36,563 bases of DNA from positions 1-36,563 of the IMG/VR virus record IMGVR_UViG_3300044712_000047; one strand, written 5' to 3'. The translations under genes were made by a program, and so were the position numbers. Source of the stretch: a virus. Numbering within the stretch: the first letter of the stretch is position 1; every line of letters starts with the position of its first letter. The notes beneath the pieces were generated by a model. That model worked only from the letters and a program-made list of their open reading frames with translations, did no database searches and was not told where the DNA came from. Positions 80 through 36,563 of this stretch are shown piece by piece.

Positions 80-511
80 ATGGGCAGACCAGCGACCTCT
101 ATCGAGCAGAAGCGCATCACAGGCAATCCAGGGCAGCGCAGGCTCCCTGACCCTGAGAAAACCATCGCCGTTCAGGGCGGATACCGTGAGCCACACCAGC
201 CTCTTGACTGGGCTGGACAGCAACTATGGGATCGTGTCTACAAGATGGCATCCACTTGGGTAGCCGAAACTGATGTCGAGCTCCTGCTCATAACCTGCAA
301 GCAGTTAGACCGACAGATTGCCCTCGAAAGTATCTGGCGTGAGAATGAAACCGACTTCCATGTAATGCGACAGCTTCTAGAGCTTGAGAAGGAAATAGTC
401 AACAACCTCGGCAAGTTGGGTATGACCGTAGACTCACGCTCACGACTAGGCTTAGCCGAAATCAAAGCTCAGTCAGCGTTCGAAAGATTGATGTCCGAAA
501 GAGCCCAGTGA
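80..511 (+). CDS. terS: terminase small subunit (P27 family)
   Basis: 143 aa. The N-terminus has the P27-type signature: GRPATS, then a basic stretch with GNPGQRRLP around residues 15-23. The rest is mostly helical. Small subunits bind the packaging site and pass DNA to the large subunit, which follows and overlaps this gene by four bases (GTGA), so the two are translationally coupled. The ATG at 80 is the only sensible start. Length is normal for the family. It is the first gene next to the genome end, the usual place. Confidence 0.88.
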   Translation: MGRPATSIEQKRITGNPGQRRLPDPEKTIAVQGGYREPHQPLDWAGQQLWDRVYKMASTWVAETDVELLLITCKQLDRQIALESIWRENETDFHVMRQLLELEKEIVNNLGKLGMTVDSRSRLGLAEIKAQSAFERLMSERAQ

Positions 512-2022
512 TACCTCCCGCTTGGCTAACGCCCGTTCCACAAGAAGCTATTGACCGTGGTGACGGTGACTTCATCGTTCGCTTTGCAGATGCCTTTGCG
601 ACAATCACCAAAGACTCAGTTGCAGGCCGCTCCGGTAGCAAACTGGTGCTTCGAGAGTGGCAGAAAGAGCTTCTACATCAAGTATTCGCTCGTGACGAGG
701 ATGGCGGTCTACGCAACCGCATCTCACTTATAGGCATGCCCCGTAAATCAGGAAAGTCAGCTCTCGGTTCTATCATTGCCGCCTTTGGACTGATGGACAT
801 CAAGACTCAGGGTGCTGAAATCTATTCGGTCGCAGCTGACCGCAACCAGGCACGCATCGTATTCGAGGACACCAAGCGTATGATCCAGAACTGCGAACTC
901 AAAGACCATGTGAAGATTTACCGAGACGCAATCCTCGTACCAGCCACCAACAATGTCTACCGAGTCCTATCGGCTGATGCTCCCAGACATGAAGGTTTGA
1001 GTCCTACGATGGTTCTCTTTGATGAGCTCCATGCCCAGCCGAATCGCCAGCTTTTCGATGTTATGTCACTGGCTCAAGGTGCTCGTGGTAAGTCAGCGAC
1101 AATGATTGCTATCACCACGGCGGGGGTAAAAACCGAGAGCCAGACAGGTAAGGACACTATTGCCTATGAGCTTTACCAGTATGGCAAAAAAATCATCAAG
1201 GGTGAGGTGGAAGATGAGACCTTCTTCATGGCTTGGTGGGAGGCTCAGGAGGATGCAGATCATCGCCTTGAGAGCACTTGGAGGGCATCCAATCCAGGCT
1301 ACGGCGACATCTGTGCCGCATCTGACTTCGAATCAGCCGTAAAGCGAACTCCAGAGTCCGAATTTCGCACAAAACGCTGTAATCAGTGGGTTTCATCGCA
1401 ATCTGCGTGGCTTCCGGCGGGTGCTTGGGATGCTCTCGGTGCAGAAATCGAGATTTCGCCCGATGAAGAGTATGTTCTGGGCTTTGACGGCTCTTACGCC
1501 TCCGACTCGACCGCTTTGGTCGTCTGCACCATCCCAAAAGACGATGAATTGCCAAAAGTAGCCCTAATTCGGTCGTGGGAGAAGAATTTTGGCGTAGATG
1601 ACGACTCTTGGCGAGTTCCAATGGATGAAGTCAAGCAATCCATCATTGATTACACGCAAAAATACCCAAAAGTGCGTGAAATCGCCTGTGACCCCTACCG
1701 ATGGGCACAAATGATGCAAGATTTGGAAGAATTAGGCCTTCCAATCGTTGAATACAAGACAAACTTGCTCAATTTGATGATTCCAGCCACCCAAAAGGTG
1801 TTTGATGCCGTAGTCGAGGGCAAATTAGTCCACGATGGCAACCCGTCAATGTCTCGCCACATTGAGAACTGTGTAATCAAGACAGATCACCGAGGACAGC
1901 GTGTAACCAAAGAACACGCCAACTCAAAGAAGAAGATTGACAACGCTATCGCTTTCATTATCGCCTACGACAGAGCAACAGTGGGTAGAATGGAAGAGGT
2001 AGTGCCTCAAGTTTTTGTATAG
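508..2022 (+). CDS. terL: terminase large subunit
   Basis: 504 aa, starting at GTG inside the terS stop. The N-terminal ATPase has Walker A GMPRKSGKS (76-84), Walker B VLFDELHA (169-176) and a likely coupling motif ITTAG (202-206). The C-terminal RNase H-like nuclease begins with GFDGS (325-329); ACDPYRW near 393-399 and DNAIAF near 478-483 fit the later acidic positions. The protein drives DNA into proheads and cuts it at the genome ends. It resembles the terminase-1/HK97-like group common in actinophages. No part is missing. Confidence 0.95.
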   Translation: MIPPAWLTPVPQEAIDRGDGDFIVRFADAFATITKDSVAGRSGSKLVLREWQKELLHQVFARDEDGGLRNRISLIGMPRKSGKSALGSIIAAFGLMDIKTQGAEIYSVAADRNQARIVFEDTKRMIQNCELKDHVKIYRDAILVPATNNVYRVLSADAPRHEGLSPTMVLFDELHAQPNRQLFDVMSLAQGARGKSATMIAITTAGVKTESQTGKDTIAYELYQYGKKIIKGEVEDETFFMAWWEAQEDADHRLESTWRASNPGYGDICAASDFESAVKRTPESEFRTKRCNQWVSSQSAWLPAGAWDALGAEIEISPDEEYVLGFDGSYASDSTALVVCTIPKDDELPKVALIRSWEKNFGVDDDSWRVPMDEVKQSIIDYTQKYPKVREIACDPYRWAQMMQDLEELGLPIVEYKTNLLNLMIPATQKVFDAVVEGKLVHDGNPSMSRHIENCVIKTDHRGQRVTKEHANSKKKIDNAIAFIIAYDRATVGRMEEVVPQVFV

Positions 2023-2032
2023 GCGGTAAGTT

Positions 2033-3379
2033 TTGGGTATTTTAGATAGATTGCTCGGCAGAGAGCAACGAGCAGTCACCTTCCAGACACTCTGGGGCTC
2101 AGGCGACTATGACGACCTATCCAGCCTATCTGGAACCATCGTCAGCTCTCAGACCGCTCTACAGGTCAACGCAATCTTCTCTGCGGTATCCCTAATTAGT
2201 GACACTATCTCGACTTTGCCTGTTGATGTGTTCATCCGCCGTGATGGAGCACGCTATCCGTTCCGCCCACGCCCAACTTGGGTAGCTCAACCGGACATTG
2301 ACACTACCAAAGAAGCCTTCTACGGCTCTGTAATCGTTTCATTGCTCCTAGACGGTAATGCGTTCATCCGCATCTATTCGAACCCGCAGGGCGAGATTGT
2401 GAACCTTACAGTGCTGAATCCGATGGATGTCGAGATTCGCCGCACTGGTATTGGTCGAGTTGGCTTCAAGGTAACTGGTGAGGACAACTTGCTAACCAGT
2501 GACCAGATTGTTTTCATCCCTGATCTAGTACGCCCAGGACAGCTTCGAGGCGTATCGAGAGTCGAAGCACTAAAAGAAAACTTCGGTCTCGCACTAGCAC
2601 TAGAGAAGTACGCTGCTAAATTCTTCGGTTCGGGCACTCAGACCTCTGGTGTCATCGAGATACCTGGAAATGCAACTGCTGAGCAGGCTAAGGCAATGCA
2701 GGAAGCCTTCGATAGCCGTCACAAGGGCTGGGCAAAGGCTCACAAGACCGCAATTCTGTCCGGTGGAGCTCAGTACAAGCCAACCAATGTTCCAAACGAC
2801 CAAGCTCAGTTCCTAGACTCCCGCAGACTAGCTGTTGAAGATGTAGCTCGTGCCTTCAATGTGCCCCCACACCTAATGGGACTACCAGGCACTAACTCAT
2901 ACGCCTCAGTCGAGCAGAACAACCTTGCTTGGGTTACTCACTGCCTACGCCCAATCGTGCAGAAGATCGAGGGTGCTCTGAGCCCTCTTATGGCACGCTA
3001 TGCAGGCGGAGAGCAGGCTTTCATCCGCTTCAACCTAGATGGCTTACTACGAGCTGACATCAACTCTCGTATGACCGCCTTCTCGACTGGTCTCCAATCA
3101 GGTTTCTTGACCATCAACGATGTTCGCCGTCTTGAGGACTTGCCTCCAATCAATGACCCATCGGCTGACACCGTTCGTGTGCCTCTTGCCAATGTGAATG
3201 TCGAAGCAGCCGACCTATCGGCTCAGACTGAGCGTGTAGACATGGCACAGCGTTTGATTCAGGTCGGATTCGACCCAGCAGATGTAATGGACAAGCTGGG
3301 ACTTCCTGCAATTCAGCACACTGGTATCAACTCGGTACAACTTCAGCCAGACCAGCCAACTGATGTCGGAGGCAACTAA
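2033..3379 (+). CDS. portal protein (HK97 type)
   Basis: 448 aa. The dodecameric portal forms the DNA channel at one capsid vertex and binds terminase and connector. Typical features are the opening MGILDRLLGR, an early helix NAIFSAVSLISDTISTLP, GNAFIRIY, and the stem/wing block RPGQLRGVSRVEALKEN followed by FNVPPHLMGLPG. The start is TTG at 2033, chosen because the family's characteristic N-terminus begins exactly there and no ATG fits; the upstream GGCGGTAAG is a weak ribosome site. The next gene overlaps the stop (TAATG). Confidence 0.93.
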   Translation: MGILDRLLGREQRAVTFQTLWGSGDYDDLSSLSGTIVSSQTALQVNAIFSAVSLISDTISTLPVDVFIRRDGARYPFRPRPTWVAQPDIDTTKEAFYGSVIVSLLLDGNAFIRIYSNPQGEIVNLTVLNPMDVEIRRTGIGRVGFKVTGEDNLLTSDQIVFIPDLVRPGQLRGVSRVEALKENFGLALALEKYAAKFFGSGTQTSGVIEIPGNATAEQAKAMQEAFDSRHKGWAKAHKTAILSGGAQYKPTNVPNDQAQFLDSRRLAVEDVARAFNVPPHLMGLPGTNSYASVEQNNLAWVTHCLRPIVQKIEGALSPLMARYAGGEQAFIRFNLDGLLRADINSRMTAFSTGLQSGFLTINDVRRLEDLPPINDPSADTVRVPLANVNVEAADLSAQTERVDMAQRLIQVGFDPADVMDKLGLPAIQHTGINSVQLQPDQPTDVGGN

Positions 3380-9103: not shown

Positions 9104-9715
9104 ATGGCGATTACTAACGGGTACTGCACGCTACAGCAGTTGAAGGACAGCCTTCGAATCAGCGACAATGTTGATGACACGATGCTAGAGCTTGCTATCG
9201 AGACCGCATCCCGCCAGATTGACGATTACTGCGAGCGTGTGTTCTACACCACTTCTGCTACCCGTTATTACACCCCTAGAGACTCGTATGTTTGTGAGAC
9301 CGATGACATCGTTAGCATCACAACTCTCAAGAGCTCCTCTGCCGGAAACGGAACCTACGACATCACTTGGGCAACCACTGACTACCAGACTGAGCCTTTG
9401 AACGGTATCGCTGGTGGCATCAGCTCTCCAGTGACTCACATAAGGGCTATTGGCAACTACCTGTTCCCTATGTGGAGCCCTAGTAGCGTAAATGCTGGCG
9501 AAGCTACTGTGCAGGTTGTGGGAACATTCGGTTGGTCAGCAGTGCCTACTGCAATCAAATACGCAACCATTTTGCTAAGCTCCCGCCTATTCAAGCGTAT
9601 GGACAGCCCGCTAGGTGTGGCTGGTATTGGCGACCTAGGTGTAATCCGAGTCAGCCGTATTGATCCTGACATTGACGCTCTAATCAGCCCATTCAAGAAG
9701 ATGAGGATGGCGTAG
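9104..9715 (+). CDS. head-tail connector (gp6-like adaptor)
   Basis: 203 aa. The N-terminal block YCTLQQLKDSLRI followed by DDTMLELAIETASRQIDDYC is typical of the gp6-like adaptor family, which forms a ring under the portal. The C-terminal half is longer than in HK97 gp6, with a beta-rich section and an end rich in basic residues (FKKMRMA). It comes straight after the sugar cassette and overlaps the next gene's GTG by one base. No other role fits this position. Confidence 0.83.
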   Translation: MAITNGYCTLQQLKDSLRISDNVDDTMLELAIETASRQIDDYCERVFYTTSATRYYTPRDSYVCETDDIVSITTLKSSSAGNGTYDITWATTDYQTEPLNGIAGGISSPVTHIRAIGNYLFPMWSPSSVNAGEATVQVVGTFGWSAVPTAIKYATILLSSRLFKRMDSPLGVAGIGDLGVIRVSRIDPDIDALISPFKKMRMA

Positions 9716-26360: not shown

Positions 26361-26600
26361 ATGGACTTGGAGCTACTAGCCAAGGCTATGCGAGAGCGAG
26401 CCTTGTTGATAGATGGTGACGAATCGCTGAGCGAGAGCTTGGCAATAGATCAGGTCGCCATAGAGAAAGCAAAAGAAAAGAAGCGTGCACAGGTCGAGAA
26501 CCTGAAGCGTCTTTACTTCAACGCTGGGCGATGGGTAGGCGGAGCCAGAGACCACACCGCCCGTGAAGCCTTTACCAAGATGAAGGCACGAGAGCAGTGA
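26361..26600 (+). CDS. small helical protein before methyltransferase
   Basis: 79 aa, helical and basic: LLAKAMRERALLIDGDES, then EKAKEKKRAQVENLKRLYF and RWVGGARDHTAREAF. GGAGAGAG precedes the ATG. It overlaps the methyltransferase start by four bases (GTGA). No motif recognised. The Lys/Arg face could bind nucleic acid. Confidence 0.6.
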   Translation: MDLELLAKAMRERALLIDGDESLSESLAIDQVAIEKAKEKKRAQVENLKRLYFNAGRWVGGARDHTAREAFTKMKAREQ

Positions 26601-27166
26601 AGATAGGCAGCCTATTCTCAGGCTACGGGGGCTTAGACCTAGCGGTCTCAAATGTCACCGGAGCGACTGTTGCTTGGCATTGTGAATGGGAGTCAGCTCC
26701 CTCAGCCATTCTGGAGAAGCGTTTTCCAGGCGTGCCTAACTTCCACGATGTATCGAAGGTTGACTGGACTCAGGTTGAGCCAGTAGACATTCTCACAGGC
26801 GGGTTTCCCTGCCAAGACCTATCCCTAGCTGGTAAGCGTGCGGGGATGAAAGACGGAACAAGATCAGGACTATGGTCTGAGTTCCACAAAGCAATCGAAA
26901 TTTTGAGACCAAGATTGGTGGTAATTGAAAATGTTAGAGGACTACTCAGCGCAACAGCCCATAGCGACATGGAACCCTGCCCGTGGTGTATGGGAGACAA
27001 CGCAAGTGAACCTCCTTTGCGGGCACTCGGAGCCGTACTTGGAGACTTGGCCGACATCGGGTATAGCAGTAAATGGGTCGGTGTACGAGCTGCCGATGCA
27101 GGTGCACCGCACAACCGATTCCGAATCTTTATCATTGCCTACCCCCAGAGCACAGGAGCCAGGTAG
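26597..27166 (+). CDS. cytosine-5 DNA methyltransferase, motifs I-VIII part
   Basis: 189 aa from GTG. Motif I SLFSGYGGLD (5-14), motif IV GGFPCQDLS with catalytic Cys72, motif VI VIENVRGL (109-116) and motif VIII VRAADAGAPHNRFRIFIIA (163-181) are all intact. The frame ends soon after motif VIII, so the target domain and motifs IX-X are missing; they are found in the next gene, in the +1 frame, overlapping by 236 bases. Two-subunit C5 enzymes (M.AquI, M.EcoHK31I) are a precedent. It likely protects phage DNA from host restriction. Confidence 0.88.
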   Translation: MKIGSLFSGYGGLDLAVSNVTGATVAWHCEWESAPSAILEKRFPGVPNFHDVSKVDWTQVEPVDILTGGFPCQDLSLAGKRAGMKDGTRSGLWSEFHKAIEILRPRLVVIENVRGLLSATAHSDMEPCPWCMGDNASEPPLRALGAVLGDLADIGYSSKWVGVRAADAGAPHNRFRIFIIAYPQSTGAR

Positions 27167-28163
27167 CACCTCGCCTGGATACGGCGACTCGCTGAATGAC
27201 TTTGCTAACCGTGTGACTAAGGGATACGCCCCTAAAGACCTAGAACTATTGCGTTCCCCAACGGCGAGCCAAGGTGAGGGTGGGGCTCTAGGCGAGGAGA
27301 CTGCAAGAGCTAGGGGCAATACCGTTGGCATCCGTGACAACGCCTTGGACATTGCGAAGCTCAATGGGCTACCCGTTTCAAGGGTGGTAGAGAACTTGAT
27401 GCCTACCCCGAACACTATGGATCACCTGCCCGCCAGAACGCCTGAGCAAAAATTGGCTAACAAGGGCAAAGGTGGTTACGCAAATGTCCGTGAGACCGTA
27501 GTAAATGATTTGATGCCTACTCCAAAAGCCTTAGATGGTATCAAGGGAAATCTAAAGACATCTCAGGAGCGAATTGCATCGGGGCATTTTGTTGATTTGA
27601 CAAATGTGGCTATTGACATCAATAAGGAAACTGCTGAGAAAGCATCTGTGAACCTACCAACCCCAACTGCATCAGATTGGAAAGGTGCGAATAATTCTGG
27701 CTCAGGAACCACTAGTTCAAATGGATTGGCTACAAGGATAGACAATTTAGAGACTAATTGGGGCAAGTTCGAGCCAGCTATTCGCCGATGGGAGCAAGTT
27801 CTCGGCAGACCTGCTCCAGCTCCAACTAAGCCAGATGGCAAAGATGGGGCTCACAGGCTCTCTAGTGCCTTTACAGAATGGATGATGGGACTACCGGAGG
27901 GCTGGATTACTGATGTAGGGCTAAGCCGCAATGAAGAGCTAAAAGCGTGTGGCAATGGAGTAGTCCCTCAGCAGGCTGAGATGGCATTGAGGTTCTTGCT
28001 GGAAGGCGTAGAGCTACCGTCAGTTGAGACGGATGTTCAGTTGCCGACCCCAACCGTTAGCGACATCTACACTGGTAATTTGGCAAGCACCCAGCAGAAG
28101 CCTGGTTCAATGCACAGCGTTACTTTGCCTAGGGCAATCAAGATGCTAGGGGCGGAAGAATGA
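26931..28163 (+). CDS. methyltransferase second part with PTP repeats, motif X
   Basis: 410 aa from ATG 26931 (TTG 26925 also possible). The C-terminus carries RRWEQVLGRPAPAP, EWMMGLPEGWITDVG and GNGVVPQQAEMAL, the last being C5-MTase motif X. The long centre has repeats of the form (L/M)PTPxxxD: LMPTPNTMD, LMPTPKALD, LPTPTASD, LPTPTVSD. The N-terminal 79 codons lie opposite the motif VI-VIII region of the previous gene in another frame, yet contain WPTSGIAVNGSVYELP, a pattern known from such phage proteins. It may be a separate subunit or the end of one frameshifted enzyme. Confidence 0.78.
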   Translation: MLEDYSAQQPIATWNPARGVWETTQVNLLCGHSEPYLETWPTSGIAVNGSVYELPMQVHRTTDSESLSLPTPRAQEPGSTSPGYGDSLNDFANRVTKGYAPKDLELLRSPTASQGEGGALGEETARARGNTVGIRDNALDIAKLNGLPVSRVVENLMPTPNTMDHLPARTPEQKLANKGKGGYANVRETVVNDLMPTPKALDGIKGNLKTSQERIASGHFVDLTNVAIDINKETAEKASVNLPTPTASDWKGANNSGSGTTSSNGLATRIDNLETNWGKFEPAIRRWEQVLGRPAPAPTKPDGKDGAHRLSSAFTEWMMGLPEGWITDVGLSRNEELKACGNGVVPQQAEMALRFLLEGVELPSVETDVQLPTPTVSDIYTGNLASTQQKPGSMHSVTLPRAIKMLGAEE

Positions 28164-30375: not shown

Positions 30376-30391
30376 CAGTTTCAAAATGTGT

Positions 30392-30421
30392 TTGACATTC
30401 GGTTCAAAAGCCGAATAACCT
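30392..30421 (+). promoter_or_regulatory. promoter with hairpin spacer, leaderless gene
   Basis: TTGACA (30392-30397), 18-base spacer, TAACCT (30416-30421), then six bases to ATG 30428, with no ribosome site. The spacer 30398-30415 is an inverted repeat, TTCGGTT...AGCCGAA (one G-T pair), which may be an operator. A transcript here would start at the ATG. Confidence 0.6.
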
Positions 30422-30427
30422 GTCCCT

Positions 30428-30622
30428 ATGAAAACAACGAGAGAGCTAAAGCAGGACATCGAGTTCAACCTCGACCTGCTATACCAAAAAGGCTATGACC
30501 TAGGCTTCCGCACTCTGCTTGAAGATTTAGAGCAGATCGCAGATGCCTGGTGGAACGCAGGTTTCACCTCCCCGGCAGAGATGCTACGAATGGAAATCAA
30601 AAAACTAAGGAGCGAAAATTGA
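30428..30622 (+). CDS. small helical protein, first gene of right operon
   Basis: 64 aa. Helical and acidic (IEFNLDLLYQKGYDLGFRTL, QIADAWWNAGF, EMLRMEIKKLRSEN). No known motif. It is the first gene after the promoter at 30392 and its ATG lies at the predicted transcript start. It overlaps the next gene by four bases (TTGA). Confidence 0.65.
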   Translation: MKTTRELKQDIEFNLDLLYQKGYDLGFRTLLEDLEQIADAWWNAGFTSPAEMLRMEIKKLRSEN

Positions 30623-31500: not shown

Positions 31501-31709
31501 TGAGCAACTGGAACAGAACTAACTATCGCCAGGTAATTGAACTGCTAAAGGATGACAAGCTGGTGTGGTCTCCTGACTTCGATGCGATACGAGTCTTACT
31601 AGCCGATGTGTTCGATGAACACCTAATTGAGAGCAACTTCAGCTTCAGCACTCTAAACTATCTAGCAGAGAAACTGCTTGAGGATGAGAACAACTTGGAG
31701 GTTCGATAA
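31500..31709 (+). CDS. hypothetical protein, 69 aa
   Basis: ATG 31500 overlaps the previous stop (TAATG). An in-frame ATG 81 bases upstream lies inside the membrane-protein gene and was rejected. Sequence: WNRTNYRQVIELLKDD, FDAIRVLLADVFDEHL, YLAEKLLEDENN: helical, acidic. No family recognised. Overlaps the next gene by one base. Confidence 0.6.
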   Translation: MSNWNRTNYRQVIELLKDDKLVWSPDFDAIRVLLADVFDEHLIESNFSFSTLNYLAEKLLEDENNLEVR

Positions 31710-31936
31710 TGCTAGAAGATTTGAAGCCGCCAACTGACCCACGAGGATCATGCAAGGTTGCAAAGGTATTAGACAGCTTGAGCGAGACCGACCAAGAGAT
31801 TCTGACGGGTGCAATTTTCGACTCAAACAACTGGCCTATCAAGACGCTTTCAAAAGCACTCGCTGACCGAGGCTTACAAATAAGTGATACCCCACTTACC
31901 TCACACCGATTCAAAAGCTGTGCGTGCTTCCGCTGA
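31709..31936 (+). CDS. small HTH-like regulator
   Basis: 75 aa. LKPPTDPRGSCKVAKVLDSL, then a helix pair (SETDQEILTGAIFD, WPIKTLSKALADRG) and the end TSHRFKSCACF. I recall this PR-SCKVA...HR-K-CAC pattern from small actinophage proteins. The second helix pair resembles a helix-turn-helix. It overlaps the phosphoesterase start by one base, so the two are coupled. Role probably DNA binding; not proven. Confidence 0.65.
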   Translation: MLEDLKPPTDPRGSCKVAKVLDSLSETDQEILTGAIFDSNNWPIKTLSKALADRGLQISDTPLTSHRFKSCACFR

Positions 31937-33093
31937 TGCTAGAAAACTTACAATCAGCCGAGCGAGTGACCACTCCACCAAACTTCCGACCAGCCTTTGA
32001 GTTTGACGGAGAGACTGGAGTGGCTACCTTGCCTCCGGTATCTGGCGTTGAGGTTCCAAGCTTTGAAGAGTTCCTAATCGAGCAGGGGTTCGACCCAAGC
32101 CAGTATGAGGTTGTAGGCAACCCACGCACCTCCAGATGGCAGAAGTATGACGGCGATTGGCTAACGAGCTACCGTTTCAACTTCCGCAAGCGCAATGGAC
32201 TTGGTGCTGATCTACCGCTGCTTCTTCAAGAGGCGAAGAAAAAAGTCAAGGTCAAACCTCTACCAAACGCCCAGGACAAAGCCCTAGTCGTGCTCTGGTC
32301 AGACCTACAGGTTGGCAAGGTTGACTACCGAGGCAACACCCAAGCCCTAGTAGACCGTATCGAACTGATGAAAATTCGGTTGGAAGGCCTAATAAAGAAA
32401 GAAAAACCCAATCAGGTTTTATTCGTTGACCTAGGCGACACTGTAGAGGGCTTCAACAACGCCGCCGACATGGTGCAACTGCAGTCAAACGACCTTAGCA
32501 TCATGGAGCAGGTAGACCTAGCCACCACATTTGCATACGATGTGCTCAAGTCCATCTACCGCCTAGTCCCTAACATCACCTACGCTTCGGTCGGCTCCAA
32601 TCACTGCCAATGGCGTATCGGCAAACAGGCGGTGGGCAAGCCTACAGACGACTGGGGCGTATTCATCGGCAGACAGCTCGCCCGACTATCGAAGGAAGCA
32701 AACCTCAACATTCGCTTCATCGAGCCCCAGCCACAGGATGACACCTTAGCTATTGATGTATTCCAAGATCAGTTTCACATCCTTGGCGTGATGCACGGAC
32801 ACCAAGCTGGCAACCGACCAGAAGCCGTGCCCGACTGGTGGCGGAAGCAAAGTTTCGGTCGTCAGCCCGTGGCGGATGCGACTACGCTCGTGCACGGTCA
32901 CTGGCATCACCTTCGGATTCTTGAGCTAGGCAGCACCCCCCGTGGCACTTCCCGCTTCTTGATTCAAGCCCCAACCCTCGACAACGGATCAAACTGGTAT
33001 AGGAGGGGGTCTGGTGAGGATTCGGTTCCAGGCTTAGCTGTATTTGCTTTAGAGCGGGGGGCTGATTACACGGGAACAGTTTGGAAATTATGA
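31936..33093 (+). CDS. metallophosphoesterase
   Basis: 385 aa from ATG overlapping the previous stop (TGATG); a GTG 12 bases earlier is possible. Metal motifs: WSDLQVGK, DLGDTVEG, GSNHCQW, GVMHGHQ and VHGHWHH, the five blocks of the calcineurin-like/Mre11 family. A first 100 residues without a known domain precede them. It may process DNA ends, RNA or nucleotides. Copy one of the AAAATTCGGTT repeat lies inside (32371), read as KIRLEG. Confidence 0.88.
   Translation: MLENLQSAERVTTPPNFRPAFEFDGETGVATLPPVSGVEVPSFEEFLIEQGFDPSQYEVVGNPRTSRWQKYDGDWLTSYRFNFRKRNGLGADLPLLLQEAKKKVKVKPLPNAQDKALVVLWSDLQVGKVDYRGNTQALVDRIELMKIRLEGLIKKEKPNQVLFVDLGDTVEGFNNAADMVQLQSNDLSIMEQVDLATTFAYDVLKSIYRLVPNITYASVGSNHCQWRIGKQAVGKPTDDWGVFIGRQLARLSKEANLNIRFIEPQPQDDTLAIDVFQDQFHILGVMHGHQAGNRPEAVPDWWRKQSFGRQPVADATTLVHGHWHHLRILELGSTPRGTSRFLIQAPTLDNGSNWYRRGSGEDSVPGLAVFALERGADYTGTVWKL
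32371..32394 (+). repeat. AAAATTCGGTT repeat, copy in phosphoesterase gene
   Basis: AAAATTCGGTTGGA then AGGCCTAATA; it differs from the unit at 33641 by one extra A and one base (22 of 24 by eye). Read as KIRLEGLI. Confidence 0.7.
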
Positions 33094-33269
33094 GCCCGAT
33101 TTACTCCTATAAATGCCCGAAGTGCCAAACCGTCACATCAGACAACCGCACGATAGCCGAGCGTGATGCCGAGACCTACTGCAAGAACTGCAAGACCCTT
33201 CTCCAGAGAATCCTAAAATTCGGTTCGGTGGCCTTTAGGGGCTCCGGGTTCTACTCCACGGATAAATGA
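33090..33269 (+). CDS. FmdB-like zinc ribbon protein
   Basis: 59 aa from ATG 33090, overlapping the previous stop. YSYKCPKC and YCKNCKTLLQRILKF form a CxxC...CxxC ribbon; GSGFYSTDK is the FmdB-family ending. Likely a nucleic-acid or transcription-machinery binder. The repeat AAAATTCGGTT at 33215 is read here as KFGS, a different frame from the copy in the phosphoesterase. Confidence 0.82.
   Translation: MSPIYSYKCPKCQTVTSDNRTIAERDAETYCKNCKTLLQRILKFGSVAFRGSGFYSTDK
33215..33240 (+). repeat. AAAATTCGGTT repeat, copy in zinc ribbon gene
   Basis: AAAATTCGGTT, CGGTGGCC, TTTAGGG; same order of blocks as the tandem units. Read as KFGSVAFRG, i.e. in another codon phase than the copy at 32371, so protein similarity cannot explain it. 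Confidence 0.7.
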
Positions 33270-33589
33270 GGGGTTACAACTTCCAGGCTCCGTGCCTAGT
33301 CTGTGGCGTGCTTGTGCGAGGCGGTAACAAGTGCGAGCAACATAAGAATCCGCCCCGTGACTATTCAGCAAGAGCCGCAAAGAAAAAAGCTACAGGGCAA
33401 TACTCCGGTGATTACCGCAAGCGAGCCCGCATCATCCGTGATGCTGCCGTCATCTGCCACATCTGCAAAGAAGGCTTTAGACCTCTCGACCCTTGGCAAG
33501 CCGACCACCTAATACCTGGCGACAGACACTCCCCGCTTTTGCCAGCTCACAGATCATGCAACGCCAGCCGAGGAAATAAACAAATCTAA
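33266..33589 (+). CDS. HNH endonuclease
   Basis: 107 aa, ATGA overlap with the previous gene. N-terminal zinc pairs CLVC and CEQH; C-terminal HNH: CHICKEGF, WQADHLIPGD, LLPAHRSCNASRGN, all residues present. HNH nucleases often assist terminase at packaging or act in recombination. It is not next to terminase on the linear map, but across the joined ends it would be about 3 kb before terS. A repeat begins on its stop codon. Confidence 0.86.
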   Translation: MRGYNFQAPCLVCGVLVRGGNKCEQHKNPPRDYSARAAKKKATGQYSGDYRKRARIIRDAAVICHICKEGFRPLDPWQADHLIPGDRHSPLLPAHRSCNASRGNKQI

Positions 33590-33667
33590 AAATTCGGTTG
33601 GAAACCCATTAGGCAAAAATTCGGTTCGAGCCAAAAAGCAAAAATTCGGTTGGAGGCCTATTAGGGC
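33589..33667 (+). repeat. three tandem AAAATTCGGTT repeats
   Basis: Units begin at 33589, 33616 and 33641 (steps 27 and 25). Each has AAAATTCGGTT, then G/C-rich GGAAACCC, CGAGCC or GGAGGCC, then an ATTAGG-type end in units one and three. More copies lie at 32371 and 33215 inside genes. All are on the plus strand. They may be regulator binding sites or an origin/recombination element. Confidence 0.75.
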
Positions 33668-33704: not shown

Positions 33705-33718
33705 CGAACAAATGTTCA
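33705..33718. promoter_or_regulatory. SOS/LexA-like box 1
   Basis: CGAACAAATGTTCA: GAACA-AA-TGTTC is a perfect 12-base palindrome and all but the last base fits the Gram-positive/actinobacterial LexA box CGAAC-N4-GTTCG. Another dyad-symmetric regulator is possible. Confidence 0.5.
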
Positions 33719-33883: not shown

Positions 33884-33897
33884 CGAACACCTGTTCG
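33884..33897. promoter_or_regulatory. SOS/LexA-like box 2
   Basis: CGAACACCTGTTCG is an exact match to CGAAC-N4-GTTCG, with palindromic arms. It lies 179 bases from box 1 and about 165 before the first right-arm gene; TTTATTTATG just before it could be promoter-like. Confidence 0.62.
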
Positions 33898-33994
33898 AAA
33901 ACGGCTTAGCCCTGAAAATGCCCGAAAAACGCCCTTTGCAGATAGCTCACAGGTTTCTCACAGCTAAGCGTTATCAAACTGTTACCAACTGTGG

Positions 33995-36147: not shown

Positions 36148-36563
36148 GCATACCCTGACCCCTCGCCCTGAAAACGCTGCTTCCGGCGATCGAAAGAGCA
36201 AAAAACGCCCCTGCTTAGCTCCTAACGGCATTATCCCCTGTTTGCATACAATCACATTTCCCACACCCTAAAAAGCCTTCTAAGGGCAACCTAGCCCCTC
36301 AGATTCACGCTGCCCCCGCCCTGCAACTTGTGATCTTTGGCAACACCGCCACGCCCCTACCCCTGCGATAGCGATACAGCGACACCACTGCCACCCCTGC
36401 CCCGCTCACGCCGTTTTGTGCCTGCGGGGGTAGCCCCTCACGCCCTGCCATCGCCCGCCCCGAACCGAACCCTAACCCTCAACTAGAGGTTGAACCCCTA
36501 TCCCCTAGAGGGGGGACACCCTAGGGGGGTGGTCAAGCCCTGAGCGACCCGACCAGCCGACAC
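36148..36563. other. C-rich right genome end
   Basis: No gene is seen in about 415 bases. The plus strand is strongly C-rich with many CCCC runs. Near the end there are hairpins (CAAC-TAGAG-GTTG, CCCCT-AG-AGGGG) and a near direct repeat CCCTAGAGGGGGG / CCCTAGGGGGG. Such DNA next to a genome end fits terminase binding or packaging signals. Confidence 0.5.

Follow-up and report, generated by a model that had tools for sequence, protein, structure and literature searches.

We show that ATTCGGT(T/C) is a polar nucleotide-level signal that runs through whole genomes in one group of related actinophage contigs, and that the cluster of 11-mers near the right end of one such genome is the densest patch of this genome-wide polar motif. 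The window, i.e. the whole stretch of DNA that was analysed, is a 36,563-base phage contig from IMG/VR, and the hosts of these phages appear to be actinobacteria. The signal is assigned to the DNA or RNA level because its copies lie on one strand, occur in every reading frame and form dense arrays between operons. Most members of the group have the word in top rank, on a single strand and in all codon phases, and 0 of 5 sister genomes do, which represents a strong selective footprint. It is a serious possibility, if somewhat short of an even one, that we are dealing with a phage-specific polar code, in which one 8-bp word with dozens of sense-strand copies and concerted clade-specific variants would be read by some factor in actinobacteria so as to control how phage DNA or RNA is transcribed, replicated or protected. 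No earlier description of the motif was found in a literature search whose scope excluded most subscription journals.

Motif copies in the window

The genes, motif copies and other features of the window are as follows.

80-2022: terminase genes
824, 1567, 6609, 7580, 9526, 19505 and 20150, plus strand: further copies of ATTCGGT, left of 20.2 kb
28160: replication initiator
30391-30418, plus strand: promoter-like sequence (TTGACA, spacer, AATAAC), so named from its letters
31924-33093, plus strand: phosphoesterase/exonuclease gene (phrog_284), containing two coding motif copies
32371-32381, plus strand: coding copy AAA ATT CGG TTG in the phosphoesterase gene
33020-33027, plus strand: coding copy ATTCGGTT in the phosphoesterase gene, part of the synonymous-shuffle excess
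33090-33269, plus strand: FmdB-like Zn-ribbon gene, containing one coding motif copy
33215-33225, plus strand: coding copy in the Zn-ribbon gene, in a different codon phase
33266-33589, plus strand: HNH endonuclease gene, the final gene of its operon, with the array directly after it
33588-33666, plus strand: non-coding array of three AAAAATTCGGTT units (at 33588, 33615 and 33640), after the HNH stop codon
33592, 33619 and 33644, plus strand: ATTCGGT inside the array units
Past the HNH gene: a non-coding region that holds the array, the LexA-like boxes and promoter-like sequence, then small right-end genes
33705-33717, strand not assigned: LexA/SOS-like box CGAACAAATGTTC
33884-33896 (start about 33883): second LexA/SOS-like box GCGAACACCTGTTCGAA

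All five copies of the 11-mer AAAATTCGGTT named in the original prediction (32371, 33215, 33589, 33616 and 33641) are present on the plus strand, while the minus strand of the window contains none and the pattern read backwards does not occur. Between 30300 and 33700 these five copies compare with 0.0025 expected (maximum of one in 2000 simulations), and seven copies of ATTCGGTT compare with 0.09 expected (maximum of two in 2000 simulations). With up to two mismatches allowed, AAAATTCGGTT has 21 matches versus 7.0 expected, a number reached in 0 of 100 shuffles. The reading in different codon phases also held, i.e. AAA ATT CGG TTG (KIRL) in the phosphoesterase gene and CTA AAA TTC GGT TCG (LKFGS) in the Zn-ribbon gene. 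The GGCC and TTAGG tail ascribed to most copies proved less uniform than claimed: the copy at 33616 lacks both elements, that at 33589 has CCC, and that at 32371 reads GGCCTAATAA. The copy reported near 33019 exists, its exact form being ATTCGGTT at 33020.

A weaker relative had also been placed in a promoter at 30392; it is there, but it starts at 30397, reads ATTCGGTTCAAAAGCCGAAT and contains a perfect 6-bp dyad. This dyad, ATTCGG-N8-CCGAAT (30397-30416), lies inside the spacer between TTGACA and AATAAC, and an ATG at 30428 would be nearly leaderless. The promoter-like sequence was not called in a scan with a promoter consensus. TCGGT is found in the same spacer in L016, L167 and L028 and is absent from it in L007 and L008.

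The description of the motif as a family confined to two genes and one array was too narrow, as the motif is genome-wide and polar. There are 33 copies of TTCGGT on the plus strand of the window, and ATTCGGTT occurs additionally at 9526 and 20150. The first 10 kb contain five motif copies versus 0.85 expected (1 of 300 shuffles), and the region of 10-22.9 kb shows no enrichment (2 versus 1.46 expected). Only the right part has the version with the A-run, polarity is seen in the core and the motif is present in relatives, so that neither an equal frequency elsewhere nor an absence from all relatives was observed.

Other elements were noticed around the array. Boxes of the form CGAAC-N4-GTTC lie between the array and the promoter of the right-end operon in the window and in 26 of 42 array-bearing loci; the LexA box consensus is tCGAAC-N4-GNNCGa (PMC9380542), and judged by these boxes SOS control of the phage early operon is possible. 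A second conserved element, GTTATCAAACTGTTACC (TATAAC-N5-GATAAC on the other strand), is located just upstream of TTGACA promoters, at 33970-33986 and near the end of the RusA-like gene (about 30375) in the window and at the same place in many relatives, array-less phages included. A C5-cytosine methyltransferase is seemingly split over two overlapping frames (26597-27166 and 26925-28163), Pfam matching the N-terminal half only and PHROG the remainder, which seems to be a frameshift or an assembly error.

Arrays in related phages

Relatives were taken to be the 67 viral loci retrieved with the HNH protein. Within 280 nt past the HNH stop codon these loci carry 167 copies of ATTCGGT on the plus strand versus one on the minus strand, with at least one copy in 42 of the 67; elsewhere in the same loci (535 kb) the numbers are 131 and 35. 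After thinning to 38 loci less than 90% identical, 31 of which extend 120 nt or more past the gene, plus-strand copies are found in 14 of the 31 and a minus-strand copy in one (38 versus 1 copies). LexA-like boxes lie downstream in 26 of 42 array-bearing loci versus 1 of the 25 others, nine of which have less than 130 nt after the gene. The only isolate found among the HNH-based relatives, Pontimonas phage phiPsal1, lacks the array; it is described as lytic (PMC6106888).

The distance from a stop codon to the beginning of an array is no more than about 30 nt. In L090, L102 and L113 the word also forms arrays behind other genes that close an operon, and in L162 and L169 its arrays stand ahead of successive TTGACA promoters. 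The units are 25-27 bp apart in the window and mostly 24-27 bp apart in clade A, to which the window belongs, but relatives mainly have 10-12 bp spacing, with values near 11 and 22 in several clades; the 11-bp form of the unit is GATTCGGTCAG. Spacing of 11 bp may stem from tandem duplication and was not weighed as strong evidence. Intergenic sites point in the same direction as the nearest gene in 55 of 73 cases and do not in 18 of 73, some of the nearest genes probably being spurious ORFs.

A DNA pattern search for three units returned 89 stretches of viral sequence, among them many coding repeats of 12 nt from unrelated viruses; in L074, L096, L123 and other unrelated viral contigs, extended repeats with a 12-nt period that contain ATTCGGT or CTTCGGT probably encode repeat proteins. 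The array pattern scan of genome contigs yielded 15 stretches, and among the six inspected there was no convincing array of this type.

Independent contigs, the window included (36551-36563 and 1-32), end in (C/G)GACAC about 2.6-3.4 kb past the HNH gene. The sequences of L012 and L014 continue through this end into CCCCGCCCGCCCCC, and the end is probably cos. The array itself was rejected as a cos or packaging site, the contig ends (...GACAC) lying 2.6-3.4 kb from it in the window, L008, L010, L015, L016, L034 and L039. An intrinsic terminator or folded RNA was likewise rejected (no stable conserved fold and no Rfam match in the scan), as were a replication origin (the cumulative GC skew shows no turn peculiar to 33.6 kb), a tRNA-like element (no tRNA) and a WhiB7-type promoter (no -10 element in the arrays on inspection).

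Codon-level tests of the coding copies

The view that the repeat is a signal at the DNA or RNA level and not a coding coincidence is borne out by synonymous shuffles and by recurrence in relatives. Among 67 windows in which the amino acids are invariant, AAA ATT CGG TTG at 32371 is the only four-codon run identical across four lineages, and array-less relatives have other codons and residues at the aligned place. When the phosphoesterase and Zn-ribbon genes were shuffled synonymously, the observed count of ATTCGGTT was reached in only 0 to 8 of 1000 shuffles in 7 of 7 array-bearing loci, and the phosphoesterase gene has no ATTCGGTT in 8 of 8 array-less relatives.

Genome-wide polarity

When the shuffle test was extended to whole records, the excess appeared in numerous regions of the genome and was not limited to the vicinity of the array. 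In each of the 12 array-bearing genomes tested, TTCGGT on the sense strand of coding sequence is more frequent than expected in every one of the three codon phases, with no overall enrichment of antisense TTCGGT; five array-less genomes do not show the three-phase sense enrichment. Among all hexamers in the sense coding sequence TTCGGT ranks first in 9 of these 12, including the window, and fifth, eighth and twelfth in G007, G018 and G019, respectively, versus ranks of 466 to 3343 in the five array-less genomes. The nine genomes that remain when G007, G018 and G019 are left out contain 287 sense copies versus about 72 expected, spread evenly along genes, with A before the core and T or C after it. 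For the window alone the effect is modest (28 versus 12.9 under synonymous shuffle), and its 7-mer ranks are less striking (16 for ATTCGGT and 2 for TTCGGTC). A thirteenth array-bearing record, G009, was included in the 7-mer ranking and tested separately from the sets of 12 used for the three-phase and hexamer analyses; its signal is weak (5 versus 2.3 expected, rank 164). In the pooled HNH loci (28 of the 42 array-bearing loci and 24 of the 25 others) the counts are 145 versus 35.2 expected with arrays and 42 versus 35.3 without, 13 of those 24 being slightly above expectation.

Two genomes have variant words. In G007 the array word is CTCGGTT and the top coding hexamer is ACTCGG, and in G018 the array word is AATTCGGTC, with 2-bp gaps, and the top coding hexamer is ATTCGG. 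The genome-wide variant thus tracks the array variant: the word has shifted as a whole across the genome, which a single trans-acting reader would predict.

Since almost all genes point in the same direction, orientation to transcription is indistinguishable from orientation to the DNA strand. Across 4.3 kb of minority-strand genes there are two sense versus five major-strand copies, some of them inherited in common, and minority-strand WhiB genes have 0 versus 1 copies in 15 independent genes, a sample with no power. Two records stand apart. Piece 2 of G004 has 10 antisense copies versus 3.2 expected, in one bin, probably from a false ORF over an array. In the relative L171 coding TTCGGT is in excess (8 versus 1.5, rank 2) and no ATTCGGTT array was seen; its sequence may represent coding polarity without an array.

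Host-type genomes

TTCGGT shows no consistent polar excess in about 50 sampled actinobacterial genomes, which need not be those of the true hosts of the phages. This applies to seven genomes of one actinobacterial order, to 14 others of the class and to 32 further actinobacterial genomes (112 versus 92.6 expected sense, 114 versus 91.4 antisense); G150 has 129 copies versus 115 expected. One host-type genome, G034 (60 kb sampled, L400-L402), has no sense TTCGGT in 54 kb of coding sequence versus 11.1 expected and 7 antisense copies versus 11.1, an apparent avoidance of the word.

Possible readers of the motif

That the pattern is an artefact of codon-pair or compositional bias is very improbable. 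Synonymous shuffles do ignore dinucleotides across codon borders, and the effect in the window is modest as given above, but enrichment in three phases, its lack on the antisense strand and in sister phages of similar GC content, the variants that track the arrays and the dense non-coding arrays all argue for a real signal. A signal read in mRNA is unlikely: AUUCGGU(U/C) would be bound by an RNA-binding protein, or would protect or mark phage mRNA, and the arrays in 3' UTRs would be high-avidity sites. The strictly sense orientation even in coding sequence, the arrays close after stop codons and the lack of any sense copy in G034 agree with this explanation, but there is no conserved fold (z from -1.6 to +1.7) and no Rfam match, a copy that forms a perfect dyad is located between promoter elements, and unit distances near 11 and 22 fit a DNA-level reading, although they could also arise by tandem duplication.

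Two further explanations place the reader on DNA. A Chi-like function is likewise unlikely. In it, ATTCGGT(T/C) would be recognised by a recombination nuclease, of host or phage origin, that enters a DNA end from one side, so that one-strand copies and arrays near the right cos end would protect the genome and promote recombination. This explanation agrees with a polar 8-mer that is confined to one strand and distributed evenly along genes, with arrays where coding constraint is absent, with the position of the window's array 2.9 kb from a contig end resembling cos, and with the YqaJ-type recombinase gene carried by the phages. Against it, though not as a final refutation, stands the lack of TTCGGT enrichment in the sampled actinobacterial chromosomes, which need not be those of the true hosts. 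If the motif is Chi-like, it would be a recombination word for uncultured aquatic actinobacteria. Quite unlikely are direct-repeat sites for the host protein BldC (small, MerR-like) or for a head-to-tail BldC/Xis-like wHTH protein. BldC binds direct repeats AATTCGGAC (PMC5859096), the crystal DNA is CAATTCGGACAATTCGGACA, and one natural site begins AATTCGGTC, the very word of the G018 arrays. Of 121 genomes from one actinobacterial order, which need not be that of the true host, 92 have BldC above the cut-off; in the 30 actinobacterial loci examined its DNA-binding core differs hardly at all from that of the Streptomyces protein; and CGGACGATTCGGAC, with 9-bp direct repeats, lies just upstream of bldC in four genomes (G075, G098, G044 and G081) as a candidate autoregulatory site. 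However, BldC repeats are 9 bp apart and phage units about 11 or 24-27 bp, lone coding copies do not suit a protein that requires two repeats, and ATTCGGT pairs are not enriched in host-type genomes. HTH_17 at E 0.01 has no match in the window and strong matches only in two array-less records; matches that are weak and partial occur in four array-bearing records (G003, G007, G008 and G010) and one array-less record (G012). Neither the window nor the other array-bearing records searched thus hold a clear BldC-like gene.

The explanation that we tentatively favour is stoperator-like: protein-binding sites in a common orientation would form a network in which the arrays at operon junctions serve as strong blocks. 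This reading is made by analogy and is possible rather than probable. A single sequence-specific protein, at work in the infected cell, would bind the DNA at every copy in a fixed orientation. Lone sites along genes might hinder or tune transcription elongation in one direction, the promoter-spacer site (30397) might act as an operator, and arrays might form a strong block separating one operon from the next operon's promoter region with its LexA boxes. An oriented one-protein network is proposed because of the operon-end position, the single orientation, the single genic copies, the promoter-spacer copy and the concerted change of the word; from these we infer the protein reader and the effect on elongation. 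The absence of an RNA fold was also counted in favour of the stoperator-like network. Counted against it were the failure of the promoter copy to be conserved in L007 and L008, the weak coding copies in array-bearing G009, and the description of the array-less phiPsal1 as lytic.

It also weighs against the network that no protein family is present in 13 of 13 array-bearing and 0 of 5 array-less records. The suggestion that the 75-aa HTH protein at 31709 is the specific partner was not upheld, its family also occurring in array-less phages. A WhiB family gene cluster is carried by 11 of the 13 array-bearing records and by 2 of the 5 array-less ones. Among the window proteins scanned no gene for a repressor or for lysogeny was recognised, a further point against the network, although diverged repressors could escape such a scan.

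Comparison with known systems

Chi words are short, polar, over-represented on one strand and inside genes, and enriched in the host chromosome. The phage motif is likewise short, polar, one-stranded and within genes, but it is not enriched in the sampled actinobacterial chromosomes.

The WhiB7 promoter element, GAAAATCGGTTGTGGT (PMC10245118), has the same AAAAT followed by CGGTTG; it differs in that the A-run is not retained in most phage relatives and the arrays show no -10 element. BldC operators (PMC5859096) share the core AATTCGG, direct asymmetric repeats, a variable repeat number and an actinobacterial setting. They differ in spacing (9 bp versus about 11 or 24-27 bp in the phages) and the phages have isolated coding copies; the phage units do not form two or more AATT-N3-4-C/G repeats about 9 bp apart. 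BldC is a lead and not a membership, because the phage sites match neither its 9-bp spacing nor its requirement for two repeats.

Compared with the stoperators of cluster A mycobacteriophages (L5, Bxb1), the phages described here have another motif, dense operon-end arrays and no recognised repressor or lysogeny gene. The likeness is in asymmetric short sites, tens per genome and mostly in one orientation, some of them in promoters, with a motif that varies between subgroups; stoperators predominantly share one orientation relative to transcription (PMC6550527). Many asymmetric sites oriented to transcription are indeed found in the phages, though transcription and DNA strand coincide in them. 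If the network is stoperator-like, genome-wide elongation control would extend beyond temperate mycobacteriophages.
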